Shown here in pieces: positions 23,022 through 33,481 of a stretch of DNA of 64,000 bases. Origin of the DNA: Polyangiaceae bacterium (GTDB lineage: Bacteria > Myxococcota_A > Polyangia > Polyangiales > Polyangiaceae); assembly GCA_025353725.1 (NCBI GenBank), contig JANXOF010000012.1, positions 1 through 64,000 on the forward strand, read 5' to 3'. How positions within the stretch are numbered: the first letter of the stretch is position 1; each line of letters opens with the position of its first letter. The position numbers and the translations under genes were made by a program. The notes beneath the pieces are model-generated. The model ran no database searches, was not told the origin of the DNA, and was given only the letters and a program-made list of their open reading frames with translations.

Positions 23022-26000
23022 TTAGCGATCGAGGCCCAGTCTTGCGCGTGCTTCCGCGTACGCATCGGTCACGCTGAACGTCATCAGTTCGCGGGCTTCC
23101 GTCGTTCGTGCAATCCACGCGGCGCGTGCCTCGGGGTCCCGTGGCGCTTCCGGTTCGCCTTTCGACCAGGCGATGGCATCGAGTGCGCTGCTCGGATCGC
23201 CAACCGCCAAGAGCGCCACTCGGTTGGCCCACGCTTGCGCGGAAGGTCCGAGCATCGCCGCATCGGCGCCCAACGTACCCGCAGCCTCCAGCGCAATCAC
23301 GCCAACGGTCGGGTCGATGGATCGCGGAAGCGCAGAGGCAAGGCGACGCGACACGAGAGCGACCTTTTTGGCGTCGGCTCCCTGTGGTGTGAATTTGGGA
23401 TTAAGCGCGGTAAAGAGCGCACAAACAAGCACGGCGACATCGTCGGGCTGGCCGCGAACGAGCGCGGATGCTCGCGCCAGGATTAGCTTCAGCGCGCGTA
23501 CAATAACGAAAACGCGAGCTTGCTCGTTGCTGGTCGTCGCGAGCCCCTCCCCGACGAGCAGCATCGGTGGGGTTGAACGAAGCGGTATCGCTACGTTAGC
23601 CAGTTGAGGTGAGACCCAAATCTGCAGGGCGCCGAGCCCTACGACAGTCGCAATCCCGCCAATGGCTGTTCCAAGGGGCGTGCCTTGGACAAGCGGGGCG
23701 GCGTGCCATGCGCGGAGGTCGATCTGCGACCCCTCATCGAGCGTGTCGCCCGCGCGATGAAAAAGAGCTCTCAAGGCGGAACCGAGAAGCTCCGGCGCGA
23801 GAAGCTCGTCCAGCCGAGGGTCGATCGCGCGCGCATCGCCGCCCACTAGGCCCTTCGGTGCGGGGGCCCTCCCCAGCGCCGCGAGGTTCGGGCCCTCGAC
23901 CGCGTGTAACGTCGCTGAGACCACACGGGCGGCATCGTTGAGGCCCCTAAGGTCGTAAGCGGCGTGCAAAATTTCAAAAAGCGACGTGACGAATCGGCCC
24001 GCCACGAACGAGCGCCGTGCGTCACCTGCCGCACGGTCGAGGAGAATGTGCATCGCCGGAAGCTGCCGTTGCCGTGTATAGAACTCCGCCATCGCTCGGA
24101 GCGCGACGACGGACGTTGGAAATTCCTTTCGCGCGGATTCGAGAACCTGCTCCGACCGCCGTACATCGCGTGCCGCCGTCTCGTGAATCCGCGCCAGATC
24201 GATGAGTCGCTGAAGGCGAACGCTCGGTTCTATCGCGTGAAGAATGACCTCCTGTTGGGTCTCAATCGCGCGCGCGATGTCGCCCTGCCGCTTGTAGATG
24301 TCGATGAGCTTTTCGAGTGCGGGAACGTCGCCGGGAGCGCGTTTAACTACCTCGCGGTACGCAACCTCGGCGCGCGACAGGTTGACGGTGTGAACGCTGT
24401 AGAGCTCACCTAGTTTTTCATAAATCGCGCGCTGTTCTTCAGGCGTGTCGAGCAGCCGTGCGAGGCGTACGTACGCCTGTTCAACGCCCAACCAGTCGCC
24501 TTCCCGCGCGCAGAGGTCGGCCATCGCGGCAAGGGCGGTCGCGTGGTCCGGACTCCGTGCAAGGGCGCTTTCGAGCGAGGCCTTCGCCTTGGACAGCTCG
24601 CCCATTTGCCCGAGTGCCCGAGCGAGTTCTACTTCAAGGGCAATTCGTTCGCCGTCTTCCTTGACGACGACGAGTCGCTTCTCGAGAAGTCGTGCAAGTT
24701 CGGCGTCCAGGTGCCTTTCGGTGTAGAGCGCTTCGAGCCGCTGAACCACGTCGCCGTGCGTCACGTCGAGTTCTGCGCACTGCTCGAGCGCGGTCAACCC
24801 GCGCTCCGTGTCCTTCACTTCATCGAGCCAAAGGCGGGCCGCATCAAACCACGCGAGCACCTGGTGGTCGGGGACGGCGCTGGCGCGGGCGAGGCTCTCG
24901 CACGCCTCGGCCGCCTCCCGTGCCTGACCCCGCTGTGCCCGCACTTCGGCAAGGAAGCCCCACGTGACGACGTCGCCGGGGTCCTCCGTAGCTGCGTGCT
25001 CAAGCAAGCGGCTCGCATCGTCGAGGCGTCCTAGGCGAGCCGCCGCTTCGCTCGCGCGCAGTAAAAGTGTGGCTCGTTCTGGCGACCGCTGCGTGCGCTC
25101 GAGGAGCGCGTTCGTCGTCGATAGGAGCGTCTCATCGTCGTTTTGGGCGCGCGCGTGTGCGTTGAGCTGCCGAAGCGCCCACAATGAAGGGTCAGGCTGC
25201 GTGGCCGCGAGGCGAGCGATGTCGTGCGTTCGCTCCCAGCCAGCCTCTGTCCGTGTTTTGAAACGTGCCGCCGCTTGCGCATGGCCGGCCACTTCGCCTC
25301 CTGCCGTACCCTCCAGCGCGAGCGCGATTTGCTCGAAGATCCGAGGAAGTTCTTCGTCGCGGCCCTCCGCGATGAGCCGTTGCTCTACGGCACGAAGCGA
25401 GGGAAGGTGGCGCGGGGTCCTCTCAAGAATGGCGGTGTGCCACTCAAGCGCAAGCTTTTCGTCCTTTTCGTCCTTCTCGCCGATCGAATCGAGCTCGGCG
25501 AGGCGTTCAAAGGCCTCGGTGCGCTCCGAGTCGCTGTCGGTCACGTTGGCAAGCTCGACGAGTTCTGCGGACTGGCGGCTCGTATCACCGGTCTGCAACT
25601 CAGCGCGCGACGCCACTACGCGCGCAAACCTCCGTGACCCAAGGTCCGCGCTCCCGTCGACACCGCGTGCGGCTCGAAGCGAGGAAACAAAGTCACCCGC
25701 CCGGCCGAATGCGAGTGCGGCCTCGATGAGAAGCTGAGCTCGGACCTCCTTCGTTTTCGTTGCAGCCTGCTGTTCACGCCACGCACCCGAGTCCTTGGGG
25801 GGAGCGCTTGCGAGGTGCTCGAAGAGGTCGCGAAGGGCCGTGTCGTCGGGCCGCTCGCGCTGGGCCTTCTCGAGGCATGCACTTGCGAGTTCGGCGTCGC
25901 TTTCGGCGACGAGAAAGGCTTCGCGGACCGCGTCGAGCGCGTGTTCGAGGCCATCGGTGAGGGTTGGCCTCCGTGCCCGAATCCACCGAAGCACCTCATC

Positions 26001-28223
26001 GGTATCCCCCTTGCGACGGCCGATCTGCTCGCCTAGAAAAGCGGCGATGCCGAGCGTGGGTGCGTCGCGATGAACACGCTCCAGGACCCTTAGCTGCTCG
26101 TCTGCGTCGAGCGGCTTATGGCCTACGCTTGCCGACCGGTTGAGGCGTGCGAGTCCCTCCAGCCGGAGCACGGCGCTTTTGTTGCCGTCGTCCATTTGGT
26201 CGGCCATCTCGAGGAGTTCGCCGCCAAGGTCGGCGCTGCGCGAGGGTTGATCGTCGAGCGCGGCTATGGCTCTCAGGACGAAGTCGTGAGTGGCTCCATT
26301 GGCGAGTGCGTCGCGCCATGCGCGGATGGCATGGCTGCGGTCCCCCGTGCGCTCGGCGACCAGCGCGGCCGCGACGTACCGCTGGGCTAACGAGGGGGTT
26401 AGGTCGCTCGTAGGGGTCGAAGCCAGCGCTTCGCTCACTTCGCTCCAGCGGCGTGCGAGAATCGCAACCTCGAGGCCGACGCCCATCGCGGACGGCGCCT
26501 CCGTCGGGACGATAAAAGAGAGCGCCTCATCAAGGGAGACTACCGTGGGTTTCGAGGCGAGTAAGCGACCTAGGGAGGCGAGGCCGCGCAGATCCTTGCG
26601 ACCGACGGTGCGCCGTGCCCGGGTGACGGCCGCATCGGAAACACCCGACGGAAGCGCCAAGGCCGAGAGCGCATCGACGAGCGGCGCGTAGCGTTCGTGC
26701 TTTGCGAGCGCGTCGAGTGAACTCCCAGGGGGCTGAGCTGCAAAAGCTAAAAGAACGGCGTATTCGGCGACCTCAAAAGGCCCTGCATTCGCGAGTGCGA
26801 CGGCCATCACGTCGGGGTCCTTGAGTTCCATCGCACGAGCTGCGAGGGGTCGGCTAGCGAGCACTTCTCCCTCCCGAAGAAGCGTGCGCAGCGCTTTCAC
26901 GGAACCTCGCCGACCTCCAACGTGCGTTGAGCCTAGCGCGGCGGACAGCCAAAGTGCCGACTTCGTGAGCGACGGTTCGGCCGCCACATCGGCCAGCGCT
27001 TGCGCTGCCGTAACGGCATCCTTCCCGAGAAGTGCGGTACGCGCGCGCCGCAGGCCGCGTGTAACGGGCATCGCGTCGATGTCCGTTCCGGCGCGCGGTG
27101 CGCCGCGCAACATCAACACTGTCGCCACGGCCCTATCGAGGGCGATCAGTTCGGAGTTCTCTGCGAGGTCGGTTCCTGCGCTCGTGTGATTACCTTGCGC
27201 AAGAGCGAGCGCGGCTCGTGCGGCGGGTGCACGTACGTCCGCGGGGTCGAGCTTGCATGCTCGGTTCCATCGCTCGACGGCGGAATCACCATCTCCCCGC
27301 ATGCGTAGAATATCGGCCGCGAGGAGCATCGAGTGCGCGCGCGCGGCGGGGGTAGGGGAGTGCGTGGCTTCGGCGTCGAGGGCCTCGACGCTATCGGACG
27401 CGTGGGGCGGCGTGAGCTGCCTTACCTGACGCCACGTCAGTGCGACGTCACGTGCCACGTCGCGCGCTTCGGTCGCGAGTCGAAGAGCTTCGACGGATTC
27501 GCCGAGCAAGGCGCGGAGCTCACTTACTCCGAGGAGCCCCCGAGCTTTCTCGTGCGGATTTTCGGTCGCGCGGGCCTCTTCCTCGAACCACGCTGCGCGC
27601 TCGCGAAATTCGATATTCGCCGCGTCAACGAGGCACGAAGAGGCCTCGGGAACGCCCGCGCGAGCCAGCGTGTCTTCGTCGGATTCACCTCCGCCGCCTC
27701 CGATCGGGCGGTCAGCCACAAATGTTTCGCTGTCGAACGGGATTGAGTTCTGTGGCTGTTCGTCGGTTTCAGCGACATTCCCTCGAGGCGCAACGGCTCG
27801 AATTTTCGCAGACGGCGGCCGCAGGGGCGGACGCTGCGACGCGCCCTTCGCGAAGAGCTGACCGAGTCCACCGCTAGCCGAAGGCGCCGAAGAAGTGGAC
27901 GCCGTAGGCAACGCGGATTTCGGAGCTTCGACGCGCGGGTCCGAAGGCGACGGAATGTCGTCACCGAGCGCTGGGGCTTCGTTGCTGGGTCGGCGCGAGG
28001 CTTGCTCCCGAAGCTCCGGCGGCACCTGTGCAATCACGGTACCTTCACCCGAAAGGTTCTGAAGCGAGGTGAGTGGCGCGCGGGTTGGCGGTTCGACGAG
28101 CAATGTCGGTTGTGGACACTCGCCGGCGCTCGTAACGAGTGTGCTCTTTTCCCATTCATCCAGGGCCGAGCCCCAGTCGAGGTCGCCGAGTTCATCGGGC
28201 AGCTTGGAGCGATCCTTCGTCAT
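23022..28223 (-). CDS. Giant TPR-repeat protein, second of a tandem paralogous pair
   Basis: A 1733-aa cytoplasmic protein without signal peptide or membrane helices. The ATG at 28223 lies 2 bp after the stop of the upstream paralogue. The N-terminus is short and acidic (LDWGSALDEWEKS), followed by a Pro/Ser/Ala-rich disordered part to about 230. The bulk is Ala/Leu/Arg/Glu-rich helical repeats typical of TPR arrays (AEVAYREVVKRAPGDVPALE, EGDWLGVEQAYVRLARLLDT). The C-terminal 220 or so residues form a distinct domain (LQIWVSPQLANVAIPL) that aligns with the same region of the neighbour. TPR proteins scaffold complexes. The partner is unknown; the ending ITDAYAEARARLGLDR-type motif has no assigned function. 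Confidence 0.85.
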   Translation of the reverse strand: MTKDRSKLPDELGDLDWGSALDEWEKSTLVTSAGECPQPTLLVEPPTRAPLTSLQNLSGEGTVIAQVPPELREQASRRPSNEAPALGDDIPSPSDPRVEAPKSALPTASTSSAPSASGGLGQLFAKGASQRPPLRPPSAKIRAVAPRGNVAETDEQPQNSIPFDSETFVADRPIGGGGGESDEDTLARAGVPEASSCLVDAANIEFRERAAWFEEEARATENPHEKARGLLGVSELRALLGESVEALRLATEARDVARDVALTWRQVRQLTPPHASDSVEALDAEATHSPTPAARAHSMLLAADILRMRGDGDSAVERWNRACKLDPADVRAPAARAALALAQGNHTSAGTDLAENSELIALDRAVATVLMLRGAPRAGTDIDAMPVTRGLRRARTALLGKDAVTAAQALADVAAEPSLTKSALWLSAALGSTHVGGRRGSVKALRTLLREGEVLASRPLAARAMELKDPDVMAVALANAGPFEVAEYAVLLAFAAQPPGSSLDALAKHERYAPLVDALSALALPSGVSDAAVTRARRTVGRKDLRGLASLGRLLASKPTVVSLDEALSFIVPTEAPSAMGVGLEVAILARRWSEVSEALASTPTSDLTPSLAQRYVAAALVAERTGDRSHAIRAWRDALANGATHDFVLRAIAALDDQPSRSADLGGELLEMADQMDDGNKSAVLRLEGLARLNRSASVGHKPLDADEQLRVLERVHRDAPTLGIAAFLGEQIGRRKGDTDEVLRWIRARRPTLTDGLEHALDAVREAFLVAESDAELASACLEKAQRERPDDTALRDLFEHLASAPPKDSGAWREQQAATKTKEVRAQLLIEAALAFGRAGDFVSSLRAARGVDGSADLGSRRFARVVASRAELQTGDTSRQSAELVELANVTDSDSERTEAFERLAELDSIGEKDEKDEKLALEWHTAILERTPRHLPSLRAVEQRLIAEGRDEELPRIFEQIALALEGTAGGEVAGHAQAAARFKTRTEAGWERTHDIARLAATQPDPSLWALRQLNAHARAQNDDETLLSTTNALLERTQRSPERATLLLRASEAAARLGRLDDASRLLEHAATEDPGDVVTWGFLAEVRAQRGQAREAAEACESLARASAVPDHQVLAWFDAARLWLDEVKDTERGLTALEQCAELDVTHGDVVQRLEALYTERHLDAELARLLEKRLVVVKEDGERIALEVELARALGQMGELSKAKASLESALARSPDHATALAAMADLCAREGDWLGVEQAYVRLARLLDTPEEQRAIYEKLGELYSVHTVNLSRAEVAYREVVKRAPGDVPALEKLIDIYKRQGDIARAIETQQEVILHAIEPSVRLQRLIDLARIHETAARDVRRSEQVLESARKEFPTSVVALRAMAEFYTRQRQLPAMHILLDRAAGDARRSFVAGRFVTSLFEILHAAYDLRGLNDAARVVSATLHAVEGPNLAALGRAPAPKGLVGGDARAIDPRLDELLAPELLGSALRALFHRAGDTLDEGSQIDLRAWHAAPLVQGTPLGTAIGGIATVVGLGALQIWVSPQLANVAIPLRSTPPMLLVGEGLATTSNEQARVFVIVRALKLILARASALVRGQPDDVAVLVCALFTALNPKFTPQGADAKKVALVSRRLASALPRSIDPTVGVIALEAAGTLGADAAMLGPSAQAWANRVALLAVGDPSSALDAIAWSKGEPEAPRDPEARAAWIARTTEARELMTFSVTDAYAEARARLGLDR

Positions 28224-28225
28224 GG

Positions 28226-31200
28226 TCAGCCCTCGAGTCCGATTGCACGACGCAGGTCGAAGTAGGGGCGCGATAGAACGAACCGCAAGAGTTCGTGCGC
28301 GCGAAGGTCGTCGCGGATCACGCCGGCTACTTGGTCGAAAGGCGCACCGAAAAGGTCGGCGAGCACGACCGAAACATCTCCGGACGCGAGTACGGCGACG
28401 CGTCCTTGCGAGGCACGTGCGCGTGCGGCCCAAAGCCTTGCGTCTTGGTTGCTCTGCACGATCGCCATGCAGAGCGGTACGATAGCGGCCTTCGTTTTTC
28501 GGCTTATCGCTTTGCTCATGAGGCGCTCGACCTCGGCAAGGACCGCAAAAGGCGGGTGAGCTATAGGAACCTTCGCGATGTTACATGCCGCCACAACGAT
28601 GGCGGCGAGGGTCGAGTCATCCCGCCAGCGGGCGATCGAGCTGCCGCGTACGATGCCGAGAAGTTCGCGTGCGACGCGTGACCGAGTGACGGGCGACAGG
28701 GGTGCGTTTACGTCCGAACCGATGACGACCACGGGCGTTTCGAACGGAACGCCCGTCACTGCCGTAGGATCCACGCCTCCGACGCAGAGATCGAACTCTG
28801 CGATCCCGAAGGCCCCTGCCCACGTTGCGATTTCGTTTCGAACGGCAAGGCCAGCTCGCGGATCGACTCGGTCCTTCTTCGCATGAACCCCGAGCGAAGA
28901 GAGCTGCGGACCGAGTGCCTCGGTAAGTGTCGGGCCGAGTACGGCGAAAAGCTCGGCGATGGGTCCGTCATCACCGGGGGCAAGGATTTGACGGATCATC
29001 CCTTCGGTAAGCGCGATGTGCGGCACGCGCGGTTTTCTACTCCCGAGCATACTCACTCGCGTCTCGCTTGATCTGTCGCCGTCACCGAGAGCGACCGCAC
29101 ACGAGAGCGCCGACTGCTCGAGGCTTGCATCTCCCAGCGCGCGGGAAACGCGAGCGAGGCGGCGCTGAACTTCGACGTCAGCTGGCGATTCGTGGAGCGC
29201 GAAGAGCAACGCATCGCGGCCGTGCTCGAGGAAAGAGCGTCGCTGCGGTACGGTCGGATCCAAGAGGACCACGACGTCAAGGGCTTCGCCATCTCCGGGG
29301 GCTTCATCAAGCAGGAGACTTGCGGCCACGAGCGCGCCTCCCGGGGAATTGAGACGGTCACGATGGATGGCTAAGGCAAGGCGCGCCGCCTCCATGCGTC
29401 CCTCGCGCTCGGGACGCTCGTGCATGAGTTGTTCTAAAATGCGTGTGGCCTCGCTCCACGATCCCGTCCGCGCGGCCGCGCGGGCAAGGCGCTCTCGCAC
29501 CGGGAGCGTCGTGAGCCCTGCGGAGTGAAGTTTAAGCAAGACCGCGAGAGCGAGGTCGTGCCGTCCGAGCTTGTTTTCGTAAAGGTCGACTGCGGCTACC
29601 CCCGCGGTGATCCTATTTTTCGGTGATGCGGCGTCGATGGTCGCGAGGCGGCCGAGTTTCGAGGCCGCTTCAGTAAACATCCCCTGGCGAATGAAAATCT
29701 CGCCCGTTAGTGCGAGCGCTCCGACGTGATTCTCGTCGAAGAGCGTCACGTGTTCGAGGGCCTCCAATGCCCCTTCCGGATTCCCTTTTTCACGCAGTAC
29801 GCGCGCCATTTCCCAGTAGAGTTTTGCGATCTCTTGAGGGTCGTTCGTGACTTCGAGGCGCTTGTCGATGAGCGAGAGCAGACGGTCTGCGTCTTTGCGC
29901 TCCCGAACACGGCGGAAGAGCCTGTCGAACGCGACGGCACGCGTAGGGTCGCAAGCGAAGCTCGCCTCGAGTGCGTCTTCAGCGCGACGATCGAACTCCG
30001 TTCCGAGTGCAGACCACATCACTCCCGCTCGCTCCCAAAACGTGGCTGCGCGCGACTGGTTCGTGAGACGCGCACCGAGGTGCTCGCACGCCGCTGCGGC
30101 GCTCTCTGTATCCTCCAGCACCTCCGATGCCGCCCGGACGCCCTCCCACGCTTGAATGTCAAACGGGCGCGCGCCGATGACCGTGCGAAACATCTCTCTC
30201 GCGCGCGCCGCATCCCCGGTGGCCAGCACAGACCACGCAGCGAGAGCTAGGCCGTCAACTTCACCCTGTTCGCCGAGTGCGCCATCGAGTTCGCAAAGGG
30301 CAGCTGCACGGCGATGCGGCTGGCTGCCGGGGGGTGCAAGCTCGAGATTTGCGAGTCGCGACGCTTGCGATGACCCGGCGAGGAGCGGAAGGTGTACGAA
30401 ACCGCGCTTCAACGCGTCGAGGAGCGTGGCGCTCGCTCGCATCGCCTCGCTCGCTTCGTCGGGAAGAAATTCCGCGAGGGCCATGCGCGCAGGCACTTCT
30501 CGCGCCGTATCGCCCGAGGCCATCGTCGCGGCGAGCCACTCGATGGCGGCCGCGGCGCCTCCTCCGAGGTCGTGCCACTTTTTCGCCGCCTCAATCAGGT
30601 CCTCGGGCCCCTCGGCCGACGGCGCGTCGCGCGCGATGCGCAAAGACTCTGCGGCGGCTGCACATGAGGCGGCAGAGCTTACCAACGCCAAGGTGTCAAG
30701 CGCGCCGCGTAGGGCATCGGGCTCGAGTGCGCTTTGCGGCCACACAAGCCTCGCCAGCGCTCCTGCAAGCCGAAGCGTCTCATTTGAAACGATGTCAAGC
30801 CTTGCGAGTGCGGTCGCCGCCGCCTCGTCGGAGTCACCCATCAGAGCCTCGAGCGCGAAACGCTCAAGTGCGACGCTCCCATCTCCTCCGCCGCGTTCGA
30901 GTGCCACCCGTCGCCCCTTCAGCGAATCGATGTCTATTCCGCGCGAAGCCCACGCCAGAACGGAATTGGAAGCCTCAGCGTCCGCGGAGGATGCAGATTC
31001 GAACCACGCGATGGCGTTTGCACGGTCTCCGTTTCGCCAGAGCTCGAAGCCTGCTTCGAGCAAGCGCGCGCAGCGGAGAGGGCGATCGTGCGCGTGAGCG
31101 TCGGCGAGGGCCTTCGATGTGCGCGCGATGCCAACGTGGTCGCCAGACTCCCTTAACTTGTCGCTGAGGTAGGCTGCGACTAGCGGATCGCTAGGGTCTT

Positions 31201-33481
31201 CCGCGGAGAGTGCGCGTAGGTGCTTGAGCACCGCCTCGGAGTCGTCCGCCGCGTCAGCGCGCATCGCGCAGATGACCGTCAGGCGGGTACGAGCGACGGG
31301 GTCGGTGACGCCTTTGAGCAGTTCTTCAACGGCTTCTCGCGCGCGCTGTTGGACGTCGCAGGTATCGGCGATGTCGTCGGGTGCACGCGGCGCGTGCCAG
31401 ATGCCGCCCGCTAGGCCATCGAGGAGGAGACCAAGCCAAGCGCCGTTTGGAAGTCCACGTAAGTTCCGGCTGGCGTCAGCGGCGCCGCGCTCATCTCCCG
31501 CCGCGATGCGTAAGCGAGCCAGCTCGACCCAGAGCCATGGAAGCTCATCGAGGGGTTCAGTGAGAAGGAGGTTGACCGTCGCGGTCTCGAACCATTCGGT
31601 GTCGGCGCACAAGCTTGCCAGGCTCCGCGCGAAACGAGCGCCGAGTTCGAGGTCAACACCGCATGCGGTCGCTTGAGCGAGTGCCTTTCGTGCGCGGTCG
31701 GCGTCACCGGCGCCCTCCGCCCACACGTAAGCCGCCAGGATCATAGCGCGACCCCGGGATTCGTTCGAGGCATACAGCCTCGATAGATCTTCGAGCTCTT
31801 CGGCAAAGAGCCGCGCGTTTGATCCACGTCCTAACGTGTCTAATTTCAGGGCGCGCGCCGGTGCACTAAAAGGAGCTTGGGTCGTCGCGTGCGAAAGTGC
31901 TGCCATGGCGCCTTCGGCGTCGCCTTGGCGAGCGGCCTGTTCGGCGATGCGAAGCGAGAGCGAGGCCCTGACGCCCCCGTCGGTCTCGCCAACGAGCCTG
32001 CGTTCCGCAATCTCGGCCGCGCGAGCAGTGTTTCCTGCGCTATCCGCGAGGCGGAGTTGCGCGTTCAACACCATACGCTCCAGCGTCCTTGATTCTTCGT
32101 AAGCCCCTTCTTGCGTCTCTGTCGATGCTGTCGTCGCGTTGCCGGTTCCTGCGCGAGCGAGATCGCCGCGCCGTGAGTCGACAAGAAACTCAAAACCGCG
32201 AGCGAGAGAGCGCTCGGCTCGATCGACTTCCCCCGAGCGATGCCACGCCTCCGACGCGCGAAGAAGCACGTCGACAGCACTTTCGAGGGAACGCTCACGC
32301 ATGGGCACACCCAGCGAGTCTCCGCCGGCGGCGTCGGTGCACGCTTCATGGATGAGCTCAGCCCGACGGTCGAACGACTCCGCCAGGATACGCGCTTGTG
32401 CGCGAGTGTCGCTCGTCGATGCGAATCCGAATTCGAGGCGAACCAGGCGCTCGATTTCCACGTGCGCCGACCAGGTGGCGAGGTCGTTCTCGTCCCGCGC
32501 CTTTATAACGATCGCGAGGGCGCGATCGACGTCACCCGACGCTGCCGCAAGCCGCGCGACGTCGATGAGTAAAAGCGCGCGCCAGGTCGCGTGGCTCGTG
32601 AGGTCCGCGCGACCCGCGAGCGCCTCCTCGCGCAGGGTTGCATCGCCTAATTTGGCGGCGACCAGTTCGAGAGTAAGCCAAGCGGCGCCAAGGTTGCTGG
32701 CGACAGCCCCCGTCTCGGTCGCCTCTCGCGCCGCGCCCCGGGCACCCTCGAGGTCCTTTTGCACGTCTTCAATGAACGTGGCCCGCTCGGTAAGCGCGCG
32801 TGCTCGTTCGTCGGGTGTAGCCGCTGCTGCGACAAGCGCCTCGATAAGCTTACCAAGGTTCGAGAGGGATCGGCGTCGCTCGAGAAGGCGTACCAAGCCT
32901 TCGAGTGGTTCGCGAAAATTCGTGTCCGCATTGTAGGCCGAAAGGTAGTCGCGCGCGGCGCTTGGCTCATCGCCGGCAAGCTCTTGGATTTCGGCCGCTT
33001 CGTTGAGCAAACGCGCCTTTCGTCCGCGGTCGACGGTGACAGCGACTTCCGCACGCACTCGACGGACCGCCGCGGCAGCAGCCTCGGTGACGGCCTGACG
33101 GGCGGGCGAAGCGTTTGAAGACGAAAGAGATGACGCCGGGAATTGGGAGACGCCGACCCCCTTGATAGGCCCTGCAGGTCGGCTCGCGGAGCCGCCTACC
33201 GACGCTCCGCTCGGCTCCAAGCTAGCGTCAGTGACGTCGGAAGCATTCGGCACCGATTTCGATCTATTCGATAGGTCCGCCGAACCCGCGTCCGAGGCCA
33301 GGTGTTGACTCTCGGTGGTGAGCTTCGCCGACGGCGTGCCTGAATCCGCAACAACTGAGCTTGGGAGGAAGAGATTCGACACGACAACGACCGACGATTC
33401 AGTCGATGAATTGACATCGACCTCCTCGTAGAATGCCTCGCCGGCCTCCTCCCATTCAGTTTCGTTCGGCTTCTCGGCCAT
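28226..33481 (-). CDS. Giant TPR-repeat protein, first of a tandem paralogous pair
   Basis: A 1751-aa cytoplasmic protein. The N-terminus has an acidic, aromatic motif (WEEAGEAFYEEVDV) similar in style to that of its neighbour, then a Ser-rich disordered region to about 130. Next comes a very long Ala/Arg/Glu/Leu-rich helical repeat region (examples: DYLSAYNADTNFREPLEGL, RAVAFDRLFRRVRERKDADR), read as degenerate TPRs. A C-terminal domain (from about 1490) carries FDLCVGGVDPTAVTGVP and PVVVIGSDVNAPLS, matching the strands of the paralogue's end. The paralogue's start codon is 2 bp from this stop, so both are made from one transcript and may form a heteromeric scaffold. No enzymatic motif was found. 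Confidence 0.85.
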   Translation of the reverse strand: MAEKPNETEWEEAGEAFYEEVDVNSSTESSVVVVSNLFLPSSVVADSGTPSAKLTTESQHLASDAGSADLSNRSKSVPNASDVTDASLEPSGASVGGSASRPAGPIKGVGVSQFPASSLSSSNASPARQAVTEAAAAAVRRVRAEVAVTVDRGRKARLLNEAAEIQELAGDEPSAARDYLSAYNADTNFREPLEGLVRLLERRRSLSNLGKLIEALVAAAATPDERARALTERATFIEDVQKDLEGARGAAREATETGAVASNLGAAWLTLELVAAKLGDATLREEALAGRADLTSHATWRALLLIDVARLAAASGDVDRALAIVIKARDENDLATWSAHVEIERLVRLEFGFASTSDTRAQARILAESFDRRAELIHEACTDAAGGDSLGVPMRERSLESAVDVLLRASEAWHRSGEVDRAERSLARGFEFLVDSRRGDLARAGTGNATTASTETQEGAYEESRTLERMVLNAQLRLADSAGNTARAAEIAERRLVGETDGGVRASLSLRIAEQAARQGDAEGAMAALSHATTQAPFSAPARALKLDTLGRGSNARLFAEELEDLSRLYASNESRGRAMILAAYVWAEGAGDADRARKALAQATACGVDLELGARFARSLASLCADTEWFETATVNLLLTEPLDELPWLWVELARLRIAAGDERGAADASRNLRGLPNGAWLGLLLDGLAGGIWHAPRAPDDIADTCDVQQRAREAVEELLKGVTDPVARTRLTVICAMRADAADDSEAVLKHLRALSAEDPSDPLVAAYLSDKLRESGDHVGIARTSKALADAHAHDRPLRCARLLEAGFELWRNGDRANAIAWFESASSADAEASNSVLAWASRGIDIDSLKGRRVALERGGGDGSVALERFALEALMGDSDEAAATALARLDIVSNETLRLAGALARLVWPQSALEPDALRGALDTLALVSSAASCAAAAESLRIARDAPSAEGPEDLIEAAKKWHDLGGGAAAAIEWLAATMASGDTAREVPARMALAEFLPDEASEAMRASATLLDALKRGFVHLPLLAGSSQASRLANLELAPPGSQPHRRAAALCELDGALGEQGEVDGLALAAWSVLATGDAARAREMFRTVIGARPFDIQAWEGVRAASEVLEDTESAAAACEHLGARLTNQSRAATFWERAGVMWSALGTEFDRRAEDALEASFACDPTRAVAFDRLFRRVRERKDADRLLSLIDKRLEVTNDPQEIAKLYWEMARVLREKGNPEGALEALEHVTLFDENHVGALALTGEIFIRQGMFTEAASKLGRLATIDAASPKNRITAGVAAVDLYENKLGRHDLALAVLLKLHSAGLTTLPVRERLARAAARTGSWSEATRILEQLMHERPEREGRMEAARLALAIHRDRLNSPGGALVAASLLLDEAPGDGEALDVVVLLDPTVPQRRSFLEHGRDALLFALHESPADVEVQRRLARVSRALGDASLEQSALSCAVALGDGDRSSETRVSMLGSRKPRVPHIALTEGMIRQILAPGDDGPIAELFAVLGPTLTEALGPQLSSLGVHAKKDRVDPRAGLAVRNEIATWAGAFGIAEFDLCVGGVDPTAVTGVPFETPVVVIGSDVNAPLSPVTRSRVARELLGIVRGSSIARWRDDSTLAAIVVAACNIAKVPIAHPPFAVLAEVERLMSKAISRKTKAAIVPLCMAIVQSNQDARLWAARARASQGRVAVLASGDVSVVLADLFGAPFDQVAGVIRDDLRAHELLRFVLSRPYFDLRRAIGLEG

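Follow-up and report, generated by a model that had tools for sequence, protein, structure and literature searches.

Adjacent giant TPR paralogues of Myxococcota, each capped by a putative M48 pseudopeptidase domain

We describe two adjacent genes of a Polyangiaceae bacterium, here called A and B, whose giant products appear to be coupled paralogues, each built from a TPR solenoid and a C-terminal cap that resembles a dead M48 peptidase; we consider it probable that together they form a stoichiometric cytoplasmic scaffold of the GltI/AgmK family. The feature is real, well conserved and apparently unnamed. Both genes lie on the minus strand of the window (the whole stretch of DNA analyzed, 64,000 nucleotides), with the lengths and positions given in the original prediction and a gap of 2 bp between them, and Pfam also confirms the ATP synthase genes atpD and atpC, typA, dnaG and rpoD as their neighbors. 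The bodies of both proteins are rich in alanine and leucine and match TPR families in Pfam. The pair is laid out as follows.

28226..33481, minus strand: gene A, giant TPR protein of 1751 aa (ATG start; TPR by Pfam)
33110..33481, minus strand: A, N-terminal low-complexity tail rich in Ser, Pro, Gly and Thr, about residues 1-124, variable among A orthologues
29054..33109, minus strand: A, helical-repeat solenoid, about residues 125-1476 (TPR by Pfam), in register with B
28229..29053, minus strand: A, C-terminal domain, residues 1477-1751, M48-like putative pseudopeptidase (AlphaFold, VIA-align, hhalign to M48)
28655..28669, minus strand: A, RELLG at the site of the lost HExxH (joint alignment with M48)
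28376..28405, minus strand: A, GRVAVLASGD, matching the third-ligand region of M48 (ExxxDRAG), its Arg near-invariant (alignment)
28221..28231, minus strand: stop/start junction of A and B, GGCTGACCATG, the ATG of B 2 bp past the TGA of A
23022..28223, minus strand: gene B, giant TPR protein of 1733 aa (ATG start; TPR by Pfam)
27657..28223, minus strand: B, tail of low complexity at the N terminus, likewise rich in Ser, Pro, Gly and Thr (residues 1-189, approximately)
28146..28184, minus strand: B, short conserved motif DLDWGSALDEWEK (DWDxALxxWE), shared by 15 of the 24 B proteins available at full length (four families)
23955..27656, minus strand: B, helical-repeat solenoid, about residues 190-1423 (TPR by Pfam), in register with A
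23025..23954, minus strand: B, C-terminal domain, residues 1424-1733, M48-like putative pseudopeptidase (AlphaFold, VIA-align)
23484..23498, minus strand: B, RALKL at the site of the lost HExxH (joint alignment with M48)
23196..23225, minus strand: B, NRVALLAVGD, matching the third-ligand region of M48 (alignment)

A 95-aa gene of the PHA_gran_rgn family (PF09650; 33556-33843, minus strand), overlooked in the original prediction, lies between atpC and A and accompanies A in several relatives as well. An Rfam search of the interval from 18 to 40.5 kb gave zero matches.

The kinship of A and B is faint in single sequences, where BLASTP finds a TPR match at only E 6e-6 and, at the C terminus, no more than a marginal 21.9 bits; family profiles were therefore built from orthologues gathered with C-terminal queries in 38 genomes of the same order, together with their flanking DNA. 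Profile-profile comparison of the two C-terminal domain families reaches a probability of 99.3% (E 2.8e-20) over 256 columns, the homologous stretch measuring about 280 residues, and the full-length family profiles align in register (E 5.4e-70). For the TPR part alone the in-register alignment scores 488 and the best one out of register 310, so the kinship extends to the whole genes, beyond a common repeat type. On these sequence comparisons, A and B are an ancient full-length paralogue pair. The expectation that the two proteins align along their profiles and share a C-terminal domain is thus strongly borne out; the likeness also seen between their N-terminal acidic motifs fails across the family, where the DWDxALxxWE motif of B is conserved and the N termini of A, which vary freely among orthologues, are not. 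In a tree of the C-terminal domain, the A and B copies fall into two separate clades, both spanning the order (SH-aLRT 98 for A and 95 for B), and a sister relation of A to B is not clear, A lying nearer to other paralogues (support 88).

Pfam assigns the C-terminal domains of A and B to zero families. A degenerate M48 peptidase was proposed from the sequence pattern before any structure was predicted, and structure prediction then covered the C-terminal domains of both proteins. AlphaFold returned confident models for A (pLDDT 93.6, pTM 0.91) and B (pLDDT 94.7, pTM 0.93). By VIA-align the A model is closest to BepA (Z 6.4), Ste24 (5.9) and BlaR1 (5.8), and the B model to HtpX (3cqb; Z 8.9, rmsd 2.6, 94 of 101 residues), followed by the M48 protein 3c37 (7.9), BepA (7.5), BlaR1 (7.4) and Ste24 (7.3). 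Foldseek by itself gave weak matches in the direction of M48, none below E 0.3. Weak rows to the toxins lethal factor and Certhrax were set aside as common zincin geometry, not kinship, and a sequence match of B to a TssM structure in the PDB (E 0.006), confined to a stretch of 56 residues, was judged to be chance.

The VIA-align scores of 6 to 9 for the two models are modest, moderate evidence when taken alone, and because such values can arise by chance, sequence homology to M48 was tested separately. The M48 profile combined a genuine M48 peptidase of the bacterium's own genome (Pfam E 1e-24) with its relatives, five out-of-frame rows being excluded. A profile of 111 C-terminal domains aligns to these genuine M48 sequences from the same order with a probability of 97.8% (hhalign; E 1e-12, 180 columns), and the reversed M48 profile and five column-shuffled ones stay at or below 0.1%. 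For subsets the probability is 87% for A alone, 72% for B alone and 97.7% for the GltI-type domains alone. BLASTP also aligns the GltI-type domain of the own genome with the own M48 peptidase (E 2e-5), across the helix that holds the HExxH active site, and a profile made from the dead copies alone retrieves an M48 locus in genome G028 (E 0.05) that the M48 search had found independently. Profiles and models together indicate that the C-terminal domain of A and B descends from an M48 zinc metallopeptidase. That the resemblance between the two C termini is merely the generic helical likeness of Ala-rich proteins, as their marginal pairwise BLASTP match might suggest, is scarcely credible: the reversed and shuffled controls already refute it, and the in-register alignment of the full-length proteins and two independent models, both confident and both closest to the same folds, contradict it as well.

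The active site of this peptidase has been lost throughout the family. In the joint alignment with M48, none of the 111 copies has HExxH; both zinc-binding histidines are gone in every copy, the first being replaced by arginine in 80, and the third-ligand glutamate, present in 22 of 22 genuine M48 peptidases, stands at that column in only 21 of the 111. What persists is an arginine in the second ligand region (106 of 111), equivalent to that of the M48 ExxxDR motif, and the near-invariant positions, mostly Gly, Pro, Phe and Arg, look structural in character. From this pattern we read the domain as a catalytically dead M48 pseudopeptidase that has shed its zinc ligands and catalytic residues. 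An enzyme that has re-invented its ligands, with a metal site or some other catalysis, would fit the glutamate of HExxH retained in about one-fifth of the copies, A included (RELLG), and the acidic residues near the third-ligand position in some; we regard it as very improbable, however, given the loss of the histidine pair in all copies, the variability of the ligand columns across the 111 and the mostly structural nature of what is near-invariant.

As a pseudopeptidase, the domain shares its fold, its sequence profile and the Arg of ExxxDR with the M48 enzymes HtpX, BepA and Ste24/ZMPSTE24, but unlike them it has neither HExxH nor the other parts of a zinc site, and it caps a TPR giant. The nearest folds after M48 are BlaR1 (M56) and other minigluzincins, themselves active membrane-bound signaling peptidases. 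Known pseudoenzymes among metallopeptidases reuse a dead peptidase fold for protein contacts or scaffolding (PMC11266112), as we propose for A and B; that review mentions neither M48 nor TPR nor Myxococcota, and the pseudopeptidase-capped family appears to be undescribed in the literature searched.

The combination of TPR and M48-like parts also recalls BepA and LapB, so that A and B might be chaperones or assembly factors of this type, serving envelope protein or LPS assembly from the cytoplasmic side. BepA does combine TPRs with an M48 domain and ranks with the closest structures, the TPR part of A and B gives weak matches to the LapB and BepA models, and several members of the family have a PPIC-type gene upstream. 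Yet BepA is periplasmic and carries its M48 domain first, the reverse of the order in A and B, in which no signal peptide is apparent by inspection, and the scores, 38 of the 363 bits required by the NCBIfam equivalog cut-off for LapB and 18 of 570 for BepA, fall so far under the cut-offs that they read as generic TPR matches. We therefore think an assembly factor of this type improbable.

The preferred reading of A and B as a scaffold draws on the wider family. Seven copies of the domain are encoded in the own genome (G000): A, B and five more, on the following frames.

C9:56000-75900 (locus L096): 3895-aa frame
C69:33000-46000 (L152): 1963-aa frame
C74:1-16000 (L097): 1875-aa frame
C52:1-16000 (L098): 1356-aa frame
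C35:5000-16000 (L153): 567-aa frame

A Ser/Thr kinase gene comes after the 1963-aa copy. Across the phylum, 139 of 237 sampled Myxococcota genomes have at least one copy. The gene immediately upstream of the 3895-aa TPR giant encodes a GltG-like FHA/TonB-type protein (NF033760, E 5.8e-75). In Myxococcus xanthus, GltI/AgmK (MXAN_4863) is a TPR protein of 4132 aa that has neither signal peptide nor TM segment and belongs to the gltG-gltJ cluster (PMC3169522); GltI has been described as a large scaffold that acts together with GltG to connect the Agl motor with MreB (PMC13104615). By size, context and family, the 3895-aa giant would be the counterpart of this gliding scaffold, and it ends in the same C-terminal domain as A and B. 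Profiles of the A and B domains match that of 11 GltI-sized members at 99.2% and 98.6%, respectively. A and B resemble GltI in being giant TPR proteins, and their N termini are hydrophilic by inspection, from which we infer a cytoplasmic location; they differ from the GltI type in being about half as long, in forming a coupled pair away from glt genes and in falling into separate clades of the C-terminal domain. The GltI-sized giants occupy a third clade (99), which also holds smaller paralogues. A and B are thus placed outside GltI orthology by location, with atpDC and typA as neighbors in place of a glt cluster, and by their own clades. The closest proteins whose role is known are thus scaffolds of the GltI kind.

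Adjacency of A and B in Polyangia, for which the original prediction proposed a survey, proved constant. In all 29 relatives whose A and B share a contig, drawn from genome collections that include MAGs, B directly follows A, and among the relatives examined there is no case of separation. The named relatives are Labilithrix MAGs, Polyangiaceae, Byssovorax and others of the former Myxococcales. Stop and start overlap by 4 nt (NTGA) in 22 of the 29, and in the other seven B starts between -14 and +4 nt from the stop of A, signals of translational coupling between the two cistrons. Apparent separations in G131 and G028 are contig-end effects: in G131 the N terminus of B directly follows A, and in G028 both genes reach contig ends. 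The B gene of G131 is split within its N-terminal tail over two contigs (C1:3595000-3606800, L212, and the end of C3, L211), likely by an assembly misjoin. Three of the 38 genomes (G012, G022 and G034), two of them small at 3.1-3.5 Mb, have no clear A or B.

The surroundings of the pair change. Upstream atpDC, whose constancy was part of the same proposed survey, is restricted to two genera of the family, the bacterium's own and one other; there is no special tie, and we rejected the association as a functional clue. Flanks differ by family: the own genus has atpDC and typA beside the pair, much of its family a PPIC-type gene, and six other families a c5-nadD block. In these six, c5, a gene of about 200 aa, directly follows B and several times precedes a nadD-like gene (for example, L085:4361-4987, L083:3694-4284 and L075:15001-15594). 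By eye, and with neither a Pfam match nor PDB support, its product resembles a degenerate YfcE-type metallophosphoesterase. A functional link through c5 is weak, since c5 stays with nadD even where A and B lie elsewhere and the own genome yielded no copy. At least five genomes have a divergent gene for a TPR giant with a zinc ribbon of the MJ0042 type upstream of the pair (L070:1-3225, L071:2-3445, L080:3-4022, L268:1752-5720 and L269:847-4617), usually with a PPIC-type gene in between; an MJ0042-type zinc ribbon is also found at the N terminus of GltJ. Some 10 kb of coding sequence has thus been kept in 30 genomes through changing neighborhoods, which points to a function under selection.

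A and B could instead be merely co-expressed tandem duplicates, each giant scaffolding a machine of its own and their coupling a matter of operon history. Many single family members elsewhere in the genomes, each able to work alone, speak for this, as does the grouping of A with other paralogues and not with B. Against that stand the adjacency and order kept in 29 of 29 relatives and the 4-nt overlap in 22 while the neighbors change, a retention beyond what drift usually allows after an old duplication, and we judge independent duplicates unlikely.

The two-part scaffold of the original prediction remains the best interpretation and gains from the relation to GltI, the complex itself being inferred. 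In such a scaffold the N-terminal tails would be disordered, the solenoids, about 1250 residues of TPR-like helical repeats, would bind client proteins, and A and B would assemble stoichiometrically in the cytoplasm, probably as a hetero-oligomer. The pseudopeptidase domain would cap the solenoid and may act as a protein-binding module, possibly for pairing A with B, and the DWDxALxxWE motif at the N terminus of B may dock a further partner. The kinship with GltI makes gliding-like or polarity machinery the first guess for the process served, although the pair does not lie near glt genes. More tentatively, and as a reading we hold possible yet would not ourselves expect, giant TPR scaffolds with a retired M48 protease as cap, several per Myxococcota genome, might include A and B as an obligate heteromer that organizes a cytoplasmic machine not yet described, alongside the gliding platform built on GltI; the cap would then be the coupling module shared by every such scaffold, including GltI.

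For the family, these results define a phylum-wide set of giants that appear to be pseudopeptidase-capped, and they single out within it A and B as an apparently obligate pair, coupled in translation and retained across an order. The C terminus of the GltI-type scaffold, a domain outside Pfam, would thereby gain an identity tied to the M48 peptidases.
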